Assembly: GCA_020002185.1 (NCBI GenBank)
Contig: CM034533.1
Location: 41,254,616-41,318,615 of the forward strand
Direction: 5' to 3'
Length of the DNA stretch: 64,000 bases
Source of the DNA: Paraescarpia echinospica
Taxonomy: Eukaryota; Annelida; Polychaeta; Sabellida; Siboglinidae
A model generated the notes under the pieces. It did not search any database. It was not told where the DNA came from and was given only the letters and a program-made list of their open reading frames with translations. A program made the position numbers and the translations under genes. Below are positions 7,401 to 16,400 of the stretch, piece after piece; within the stretch, counting starts at the first letter, position 1; the number at the start of each line of letters is the position of its first letter.

Positions 7401-10400
7401 CATAGTGGTAGCTCACACGGGCTCCAACTGGGGCACCTACACTCTGCTCACCAACATCCCGTCCTATATGAGGGAAGTGCTCAAGTTCGACGTCAAGTCG
7501 GTCAGTCTACTAGAGCAATGCTTTGAAGCAGGGCTGAAGTAACTGGTAAAATCTCCATTTTGGTTGGAGTTTCGAATTGAGGAAAATGTCCGTATTCCAG
7601 ATATGTTTACACACGCACACAAGCACGCGCACACTTGCACGCGCACACTCACATACGCACGCACGAATACGCACACACTTGCACACGCACACACGCGTCG
7701 ATACATACACACACAAACAGACGCACACATACATACTCGCGCGCGCGCGCACGCGAAATGTAATATCTATATAAAGGGTGTAAACATGTTTAATAATTAT
7801 TCCTAGAATTTTAGGGTCAAACCGTAAAGTCGAAAACAAAAAGCTGATTTTTGCACCACAGATCCCTGAAAGTGTCCTAAATAACATACTAAAAGTCCCC
7901 AAGAATCTCCATGAGCTAACCGTAGAATTCAAGATGGCGTCCCGAAACTGATGAATTTCGATGAAACGGCTGCATCTGCCAAACTATTAGCTATAGAAGG
8001 CATATAAAGCTATGTAGTGGGTGATTTTCAACCATGATCTATCCAATGGACAGCGTTAACATATAATTGAATCAACAGAACATGCTTTTTAAGCAATAGT
8101 TTACATGGTTCAAGGTCAAATGTGCAATTAAAGGTTCAAATATCAACAGCTTAATTGTGACACTTGATAGTATAGGCAACATCAGCGTGATATGCATTCA
8201 AATACACTGATATAAACAAACTTGAAAGCAACTGCACCAACCCCAGACTCCCTATGTGTGCGTCTATGGTTCGTCCTGCATGAAGATGTTAGAGCAGGAC
8301 TGGCCACTGCAGAATGCACACATAGGATTGAAGTAGAGTCCCACCTTCCGACAGCCGCAGGCCTTCCCAAACTGGCCTTTACATCCGCACGATACCATGT
8401 GGAGGAGCTTGCTTGGGGCTAGGGCTTTCTCGCTTGTTAGAGGGCACAGTCAGTCATCTTGCAATGACCAGTCCTGTAGAACCATCCAGGACAAACCTAT
8501 GTAACCGTGTAACCGAATATACCTTTGGCGTCCCAATTTGAACCCAAATTCCAAATTAAAATGTGTTCAGCAACATACAGGATTAAAACTGATACAATTA
8601 CCCAGTCAGAGTGAGGCAGGATGTTTCCACTCCACTGCTGCCTCGGTGTTCCAGTCGGAACACCGAGAATAATTTATACTTCCTGTTGGCTTTCCCGTCG
8701 TAGAGCCATCAACACATTTACAAACGTGTGTAGACACACGTTGCAACGGGTACCAAGTTGAAGAACGGACACATGTGTAAGTACAAAGCGCTTTGAGCAA
8801 TCCCAAGAACTTAATACAGGGCTACGTGCGACCTTACCTGTCCATAATAAATATACAGTTATGATAAGGATTTACCTTATATCTCAGGGTATCCAGCGTG
8901 GTATTCTGGTCACCTCCATACAGGGTTTTCAAAAACCGGTCACCAGCATATGCGATTTCTTCTGGGGTTCTGTTAGTGTGAATGAACACATACGGGTAGC
9001 CTACGTTCTACGTTAGCCTAGATACACTGTCACACCCAGAAACAGCATAGACGAAGAGCAGGTGGGTCGTAGCAGTTCCGATCTTTTCCTGTATATCCAG
9101 AACATTGACACAGGAAGACAGACATCGCCCCGTGTACACACCACGTGTGCCACTCACCTGGTTCACTAGCATTACTAGGACGTCAGTATCGGTGGCAACA
9201 ACAAGGACTGAGGTGGAAATCTCCACTGCTGTTGAGACAATAAGCCTGTCCGCGTTTCCTTCGTCCTGCTTGCAGTGGACACACTTGTTTGCAAAACATT
9301 GCATAATGATAGCAATAAGGCGCGTCTTGTTGGTTGCATTCTTGAGAAAGCTTCGTTCTGAGCAGACCCTGCTGAAATAGAGCTGGGGGCTGCTGGCTGA
9401 GCTCATATGTAAAGAACTCCTCCGTTTCTTGGTGGTTGTCAGTAAGAACTGTTATCCACAGAAATAGGAGATTTGGATTGATTGCGCACGTCTGGCCCCT
9501 GCATGTAAGCCATGAGCCCGCGCAGCCTTGTTGATGACCCTGTCACCCCTCTTAACATGTCTGTGAATGGCACCCCAACCAGTTTTATTGCTGCGGGCTT
9601 TCGACTTCAAAAGTGTCATCACAGCTGACATTTGGAGCCGCGACTATTCTTTTTGATATGTCGATGAGAGTGCTGTTGTCAGATGGGAAAGGTGGATGAG
9701 CAGCGAAGAAGTCAGTGAACAGCTTGCAGTGCTTTTGAGAGAGGCGCACGGACTCAGGTCTCAAATCCCGGTGCTGATCAGACGTTGATGAGTTCACACT
9801 AGCAAACTCAAGTACTGCACATATCGGAATGCATTTGGGTGATGCGCCTGTGAACTTTGCCAAAGTAGAATCCGTGATGCCTTGACCGTGGGTAATGCCT
9901 CCATTTACCTTCAGCAGTCTCATAAGAGATTGTTCGACCCGTTGATCCATGAAGTTACCGTCATAGAAATGGTCTGTCCTTCTAGTAACGAACATTCCCT
10001 TCTCAGCAAACATCTTAAACTCAGCTTCAGGCATTACCTGCTTCAGATTTCCCATTTGCTGAATATACGTTTTTGGCGTAACCGAAGTGGCCAGCGGCGT
10101 TGAATATTGGAATCATTTCCGCTGTTCAAGCCAGGTGCAAAACAAAGTTGCCGAAGCGCGTGGAGAATATGAAGAGTTTGAGTGGGCCGACCAAATTGAT
10201 GTACTGCACCCACAGCTTGGCAGTTCTGCTCCTCCCAGCAGCCTCATCTAACATCTCTTGGACACGTTTGCTGAATGCAACCACCTGCCCATCAACTGCC
10301 ACTACAGTCTGGTCCTGTGAGTCCCGAGATGACGCGAGAAACCTATTGAAGTGACTGGTGTCAACTCCTTTAAGAGTATCAGTGGAACTCAGCAGATTTG

Positions 10401-13400: not shown

Positions 13401-16400
13401 AAATGGAACTATGTTGTCACTATTTAGATATAACACAATTTATACACTTACGTGTTGTGTCTCCGTAGCATGTTCTGCCTGGCGGAAATGGCTGGAAACT
13501 CGTGATAAATTCATTCCATTCATAATCCATACTCTAGATGGCACCACATGCCTAGTTTTACAATATGGAAGATGATATTCAGTGCAAACAGTAATAATTA
13601 TTATTAAATGAATTTGGACCTTCCATAACAAATAGTTATTTCGACGTAAATATATTCCATTCCTGTGGCTTTGCACCCGATTACAGTAAATAAAACAAAA
13701 TAAATGCATGTTTTGATGACTTTATGATATCTTAGTGGTGTTCGTTAGATCGGGCATAGTTGAAAACCCCACCATATATACTAACATTTGCTTACTACCT
13801 CAAGTGCTTAAGAAATTACAGCTAAAACGTGTTCCTGGCCTCTCGGACGCCATCTTGAATTCTGCGGTTAGCTCAAGGAGGATTCTTGGGGACTTTTAAT
13901 ATGTTATTCGAGACATTTTCAGGGATCTGTGGTGCAAAAATCAGCTTTTTGTTTTCGATGGTATTTTGGCCTAAAACTCCGCCGGTATTCGATCAGATGC
14001 CAATGTTTAAGAAAATGGATCAAACGGATCAATAGAGAAGTCGAGATAGTGTTCGATTGAACAGGGCTGCCGGGGTGTAAAGTATAAAGCCCTCTGAGCA
14101 GCCTAAGGACTGGATAGTGCGCTATATAAGAACTTACCTTTTACCATTCTACAGTGAAACAGTATCGTGGTATTGTCGGGTAGATGTATGTTTGGACAAC
14201 ATAAAATACACTATATTTTTCACGATTATGGCGAGTTTGTTTCAATTCAGTATTCGTATTTTATACATGTACATATTTACCGACTTACAGCTGTTAACGA
14301 CCATGCACGCGATAAGGAAGTTGTAGAGTTACAGCTGACAGCTATTATATATTGTTTGCTAATGAAAATAAGCAGCTGTGTGATTGTAGCCTATTCCCTT
14401 AAATATTGGCTTTCACTGGAACGCCATCTACTACCGTTTTGGTATATGTCAATTATTTATTAGAGGGAACCTTAGGACGACATAAGAATCCTTTGTGTGA
14501 CCCCGTTGTATGATATTAACTCTACAAGAGGGGTTTTACTAATATGAAGAGTCATATTGTGTCGCCTCTTGTTGTAGAACGGACTGTTCTCTGCCATTCC
14601 CTACATCTGCTTCTGGATAGTTATAAACGTCGCGGGCATCAGTGCCGATGCTCTGAAGGCGCGAGGATGGACAACAAAGACCATTAGGAAGGTATCTCAG
14701 ACACTCGGTAAGTACAGCTAAGTAGATCCATTGTGCATTCGAGGAAGACAATACTGGCGCCATTGCCTGCATTCCTGTATTTAATTAGGAACGTGTGCCT
14801 ATCTTTAAAAATGTATTCAGTTTCGGTAAAATGGAAGTTTCAGAAAAAGTTACACACACACTCAAACGCTCACGAACTCACGCACACACACACGTACGCA
14901 CAGAAACACACACACGCACACACACACACACACACACGGACCAAACGCAGTACCAGATTACCCTTTGCTTGAAAGATTGCATTTGTATAGCTCCCTCCAT
15001 AAAATGCGATTTTTCAAGCATCCTTGTGTTTTGTCAATACATTCTACTTAGGCAATCTATTTCCGGCTGTCTTCCTCATCGCCACGGGCTACGTGACATG
15101 TGCCACGCCCTACATGGGTGTCGTCATGCTGGCGATTGCCGTCGGCTTCAGCGGCTTCCAGTACAGCGGCTTCATCATAAACCACGTCGACATAGCGCCA
15201 CGGTTCGCGGGCCTGTTGTTCGGCCTCTCGAACACTGCGGCGACTCTGCCTGGCATTATTGCGCCGTACGCCATCGGCAAGATCACCAGCAATGTAGGTC
15301 AACATTTCAGCACACGTTATTGTTATATTACTTTGTTACGCTAGTAGTCAGTACAGGCCAGGATACAGTAGCACTTTTTGCCCGACTTGACCAGACAAGA
15401 CCAGACCACATCAGACCAGACCAGACGAAACCATGTCAGACCACATCAGACTGTGTCAGATTGCAGCGTGTCCACCACATCGGGCCGGCACCATTGTGTC
15501 GTACTTCAAGCCGGCGTGACGTCATAATCATGTAAACTTGAAAACTTTCCGCTATGTCGATAGTAATACTAATAATAATAAGATAACTTATATTGCGCCT
15601 AAATCCTTGGAAACCAAGCCCAGAGGCGCATCATAACAAAACGACTGGTTAAAATCAAAATCCATAAGCAATATTCCAGTTGTCAACAGATGGGTCAAGG
15701 CGCTAGAGCTACGGTGGATAAGCAAGGTTGTAAAGATAAGTTTTTAAATGACGACGGAATTTTTTAATATTTCCAACTGATCTAACGCTAAGAGGGAACA
15801 TATTCCAAAGAGTTGGTGCAGCAACAGAAAAAGCCCTAGTTCCAATGTTGGTGTTGACTCTAGGAACAAAAAGTAGGTCAGAACTAGATGAACGAAGCTG
15901 GATAGGTTTTCTTACAGGAGTAAGCAATTAATGCAAATAAGATGGTTGTTTACTGGACAGTGCCTGGTATGTAATGGTACAGATGTAAAATAGTATACGA
16001 TATCGTACAGGAAGCCAATGCAAAGACTTCAAAAATGGTACAGGGCGAGAAAAACGAGATCTTGTAACTACTCTTGCTAGACAATTTTGGCCACGCTGAA
16101 GTTTTGTGATATCCTTGCTAGCAATATTATAAAGGGGGAATTGCAATAGTCAAGTCTGCTGCTAACAAGCGCTGTTGCAATAGTTTTAGCAACAGAAATT
16201 GACCTGTACTTGCGAATACGGCGAAGATCACGAATATGATAAGAACAGCAGCGACATGTTTGAGATATGTGTTGATGGATATTGAAGTTACTATGAAAGA
16301 TCACTCCTAGATTCCGCACCGAGGTTGCTGGCGTGATATACTGATTCAAAATACCCGTAGGAAAAAAACATCCAGTTTACTATGCTGCATTGGAGTACCA

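Follow-up and report, generated by a model that had tools for sequence, protein, structure and literature searches.

The window, a stretch of 64,000 nucleotides from Paraescarpia echinospica, contains a cut-and-paste DNA transposon in the form of an old, dead copy, which we assign with good confidence to the AcademX type (Academ superfamily), a type that was compared by description only. Its protein joins a putative DDE-type half to a flap-nuclease half, and the element is therefore very unlikely to be a novel kind of mobile DNA that can do without a DDE transposase. Assignment to AcademX, whose nuclease is of the XPG type, follows from the inverted ends, 3-bp duplications, D-D-E set and nuclease, all of which fit the printed account of this lineage, so that the term undescribed, used in the preliminary description, is not supported. 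The features in the window are:

7798 to 13983, no strand: whole element; flank homology stops at 7797 and restarts at 13984, and the left terminus is taken from the family consensus.
7798 to 8089, plus strand: left inverted repeat, type A, on the side of the gene's 3' end (self-pairing, gapped alignment, sister copies).
7798 to 7802, plus strand: left TATTC, the altered start of the inverted repeat (sister-copy termini).
8288 to 12892, minus strand: decayed gene for one protein, in several exons with stops and frame changes (profile positions 4-1424 of 1435).
8288 to 8392, minus strand: C-terminal Cys-rich tail (motif positions; eight Cys conserved in relatives).
9011 to 9451, minus strand: remains of the XPG/FEN nuclease (profile pieces, motifs, fold of a relative); its first part, profile 1024-1104, lies among the gaps in the gene and was not found.
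9921 to 11623, minus strand: DDE-like region (conservation, predicted strand order, window motifs).
12401 to 12598, minus strand: second Cys/His set, CxxC..HxxC (motif positions; C99, C102, H165 and C168 conserved).
12716 to 12874, minus strand: first Cys/His set, CxxC..HxxC (motif positions; C6, C9, H52 and C55 conserved in relatives).
13702 to 13983, minus strand: right inverted repeat, type B, terminal bases decayed (self-pairing, gapped alignment, sister copies).
13986 to 13990, plus strand: right TATTC, host flank shared with the empty site (flank alignment).
55079 to 55082, plus strand: empty site of the window's homologous stretch (flank alignments).

The host sequence upstream to 7797 aligns to 54338-55079 of the same window, and the sequence downstream from 13984 to 55082-55465, at about 87-88%. 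The insertion is therefore real, and the homologous stretch lacks the element, because both flanks align to it on either side. Only two bases separate the aligned parts. The clean, uninterrupted site described earlier is thus confirmed as to the absence of the element, but a few junction bases differ; the site is not letter-perfect because TATTC is no target duplication, its left copy being terminus and its right copy host flank. The termini read TATTCC... and ...CTCCGCC and are decayed from TAGTCC...GGACTA. The family consensus predicts the right terminus at 13987 and flank homology restarts at 13984; this copy has thus lost or changed a few of its rightmost bases. The inverted repeats, initially put at about 140 bp, are present and longer: a core pairs 7830-7907 with 13881-13958 (78 bp) and 7907-7942 with 13845-13880 (36 bp), at 94% each, and a gapped alignment of 7806-8089 with 13979-13702 extends over 285 columns at 72%. 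The element is a real, decayed transposon.

It has many copies in this genome. In 1.08 Gb on 3111 contigs, 112 nt of the left inverted repeat, used as a query, gave 198 first-look candidates, and all 40 that were scored matched at 90-100% identity, so that there are at least 40 end matches among the 198. Two of them are the window's own ends; the remaining 38 were extended to 32 longer stretches, the loci L009-L040. The sister ends have one of two sequences, TAGTCCAAGAATTTTAGGG for type A and TAGTCCAGGAGTTTTAGGCC for type B; an end scan saw both ends in 16 of the 32 loci, and one of each type occurred in all 16 outermost pairs. Pieces of the element protein (E ≤ 0.01) were found in 29 of the 32 loci (not in L025, L033 and L036), with a tail piece alone in L022 and L023. 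The most complete copies are the window copy and L009 (profile 81-1403). Two loci hold nested open frames: a frame of 1124 residues in L010 (3506-6880), which presumably encodes a Gypsy-type polyprotein, and frames in L026 (1144-4710), which we take to be a LINE endonuclease and reverse transcriptase. L019, L020, L022, L023 and L028 lie at 52.16-52.64 Mb of contig C4 (G000), where an identical transposon end with the same flank recurs five times in half a megabase; the surrounding host stretch has therefore been multiplied.

A TATTC at both ends had been read as a 5-bp target duplication. This reading is rejected, since the sister termini and the empty site make the match a coincidence. The left copy lies inside the inverted repeat and is a changed terminus (TAGTCC with one change), because sister left termini read TAGTCCAAGAATTTTAGGG, and the right copy is old host flank, because the empty site likewise reads GGTATTCG. 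The case shows how a changed terminus and a chance flank can mimic a 5-bp duplication. After L019, L020 and L028, which share flanks, were counted as one insertion, the 16 two-ended loci represent 14 insertions, nine of which are flanked by an exact 3-bp repeat: tat (L011), tag (L012), caa (L014), tga (the L019 group), ggc (L024), ata (L027 and L038), cta (L030) and tat (L039). At 1/64 each, the probability of nine in 14 by chance is about 1e-13. No exact 3-bp duplication was present at L009, L010, L013, L017 and L034; L009 and L010 have extra ends, and the outermost pair was used, the other pairs also being without a 3-bp repeat. A 3-bp duplication was likewise looked for at the ends of the window copy, and none was found. 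This count leaves out two duplications that were recognized by eye only, CGA at L026 and TAT at L041.

L041 was found by protein in a separate search of the genome (52 matches from 32 scored of 4302 candidates). It contains six open pieces over profile 3-1161, beyond which no further protein was found, and its inverted ends have the termini TAGCCCAGG and TAGTCCAGG with TAT on both sides. A fuller relative flanked by similar ends thus exists, L041 being the sole copy in which this was tested. Positions 1010-6184 of L041, where the exons are long and open and the ends are of the TAGTCC type, show that the genome contains another, distantly related family of this kind.

The element contains remains of a single decayed protein, as originally proposed, which are spread over 12892-8288 of the minus strand; the whole protein is no longer encoded in this copy. 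The N-terminal CxxC..HxxC finger noted before is located, with its CxxC at 12851-12874 and its HxxC at 12716-12739. The residues of the DDE-like region are all three kept in the window copy, the first D in FDYADVNI (11600-11623), the second D in IVTFDQSIY (10745-10771) and the E at 9921-9950. The FEN/XPG-style half, recognized previously by VSGCDS, and the Cys-rich tail were also recovered, with GNADRLIV at 9236-9259, VVATDTDVL at 9176-9202 and VSGCDS at 9026-9043.

The statement that relatives are common but unnamed agrees with the protein searches. The window pieces, joined by X, were compared with 8000 scored candidates, and 33 proteins matched at E ≤ 1e-3, the best at 9e-221; 20 of the 33 have 1238-1519 residues, and their contigs measure 4.5-8.3 kb. 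Residues 560-960 of P0032, used as a second query, found at least 78 proteins, P0032 included. No transposase occurs among the listed source names. Many unnamed proteins probably derive from this one known kind of transposon. None of 4 pattern-matching stretches in viral contigs and none of 72 in genome contigs were confirmed as relatives. The transposase-like protein P0067 (Mya arenaria, named P52K-like) has a C-terminal stretch, which we take to resemble a hAT dimerisation domain, and is perhaps a chimeric gene model.

Conservation was counted in an alignment of 110 relatives, in P0003 numbering and with gaps excluded per column. D428 (87 of 89), D593 (105 of 106), H621 (105 of 107) and E836 (102 of 104) are nearly invariant, and the D, D and E are invariant in an alignment of 34 rows. 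E758, in an AERTG motif, was considered as the catalytic E and rejected, being conserved in 56 of 106 only; E836 fits. In a structure model the strand order around D-D-E is RNase H-like, and a helical insert is predicted to separate the second D from the E. By conservation and model, the half N-terminal of the nuclease thus appears DDE-like, which contradicts the earlier view of a nuclease that takes the place of a DDE transposase. The nuclease acids D1060 (99 of 102), D1100 (101 of 101), D1173 (95 of 98), D1198 (98 of 99), D1200 (95 of 99) and D1252 (91 of 94) and the eight C-terminal Cys are conserved in the same alignment.

That the element protein carries an XPG/FEN-type nuclease, as suggested from the start, is supported by the fold of a relative and by a PDB profile search, in which EXO1 matched over the nuclease, next to one weak defensin row. 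The matches listed by the fold search of the relative span residues 631-960 and were taken up by the nuclease, so that the absence of a DDE row among them speaks neither for nor against a DDE half. EXO1, FEN1 and XPG nucleases share the fold of this C-terminal domain and the order of its conserved acids; unlike them, the element nuclease is fused behind a DDE-like half, is followed by a Cys-rich tail and belongs to a mobile element.

Family scans gave few further matches. The Pfam family DUF6589, of unknown function, matched 8 of the 32 members of alignment A1, with 8.2e-8 as the best E. Among the members shown, the match spans the second D onward, and the family may therefore belong to a DDE-type core. 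No paper naming DUF6589 was found in a literature search. Four relatives were compared with NCBIfam, with a single weak row that looks like chance.

As far as the cited passages go, the Academ superfamily encodes a DDD/E transposase. Its duplication lengths have been related to whether a helicase or a nuclease is encoded: AcademX encodes a nuclease and has duplications of 3 or 4 bp, and AcademH, placed in the same superfamily, encodes a helicase and has 9 or 10 bp (PMC10045372). AcademX is credited in citing papers to Kapitonov and Jurka 2010 and Kojima 2020. Repbase contains Academ (PMC4455052), and passages on bivalves report 100 curated Academ elements with a mean of 5565 bp (PMC10294476). 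A literature search for Academ and XPG together, as whole words, found no paper. AcademX shares with our element the inverted ends, 3-bp duplications, D-D-E set, nuclease and a length of about 6 kb, and no tested feature differs, AcademX being known here by description and not by named sequences. AcademH differs from the element, which has 3-bp duplications and no helicase among the Pfam families of the 32 members (E ≤ 0.01). In hAT transposases, too, a helical insert separates the second D from the E, as is predicted for the element; these transposases produce 8-bp target duplications, in contrast to the 3-bp duplications and the added nuclease of the element.

We propose that the part before the nuclease would act as an RNase H-fold DDE transposase, which would cut the 3' strands and join them to the target with a stagger of 3 bp. 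The flap nuclease might handle the other strand by cutting or trimming 5' ends of the element after excision or joining, a role comparable to that of TnsA in Tn7, and the Cys/His sets and the tail may assist DNA binding. The role during transposition of a flap nuclease fused to a DDE-type transposase is a testable question.

What weighs against AcademX is that no known DDE family is matched at the level of sequence, as seen in the Pfam scans of the proteins. Further points against it are the five of 14 sister insertions, and the window copy, that have no exact 3-bp duplication, and the 19 of 32 loci in which the protein is present only from profile 681-734 onward, without the first two D. A transposon with the same DDE and XPG parts could instead belong to a lineage separate from Academ, an unnamed superfamily. 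Such a lineage would agree with the fact that Academ membership was judged by features and not against a named Academ sequence, and that the relative searches did not reach AcademH-type helicase proteins; the agreement of duplication length, nuclease and D-D-E set with the printed AcademX makes it unlikely. That the protein is cargo, and the ends are moved by another transposase, is extremely improbable. The window copy is dead and activity cannot be read from it, but the loci found by their ends mostly hold pieces of the element protein (29 of 32), L041, found via the protein, bears similar termini, and the long open frames in L010 and L026 look like nested retroelements.

The flap nuclease itself might also mobilise the element, without DDE chemistry, as the preliminary description proposed. 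The loci offer some ground for this idea: in 19 of the 32 the first protein piece starts at profile 681-734, so that the first two D are absent, although nested insertions might conceal farther pieces, and these loci keep the E, nuclease or tail pieces; several short loci show exact 3-bp duplications. In the full-length relatives, however, the D, D and E hardly vary, which is unexpected if the DDE half were idle, and short copies can be moved in trans. The dN/dS among the short copies has a median of 0.69 (range 0.36-3.02) and indicates no strong constraint; it was obtained for 62 of the 66 pairs of 12 loci, which include L035, whose start position does not class it as a short copy, and for which the window copy did not qualify, four pairs with fewer than 80 shared codons being left out. 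Mobilisation by the nuclease is very unlikely. Eight of the 19 loci start at profile 681-683, which suggests an internal deletion common to them that was then amplified. Most simply, the short copies are derivatives moved in trans. We consider it highly doubtful that they, with the E, flap nuclease and Cys-rich tail and without the first two D, form a self-amplifying lineage in which the nuclease does the cutting; if true, a nuclease mechanism would hold for the short derivative and not for the full-length parent.

The surroundings of the AcademX-type copy contain further repeats. A 28-bp tandem repeat (41 copies, 94% alike) occupies 4821-5968, and a TG repeat of 131 copies at 7058-7320, shortly upstream of the element, is also present in the homologous stretch. 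The regions 7342-7542 and 53103-56750 represent a duplicated host stretch; the frame at 7342-7542, which we assume to be an SLC17-type transporter, has a weak match to MFS_1 under the cut-off (E 0.0078). A dispersed repeat of about 110 bp is found at 14034-14142, with further copies near 17-121, 20956-21065, 26315-26416, 47290-47392 and 57504-57613.
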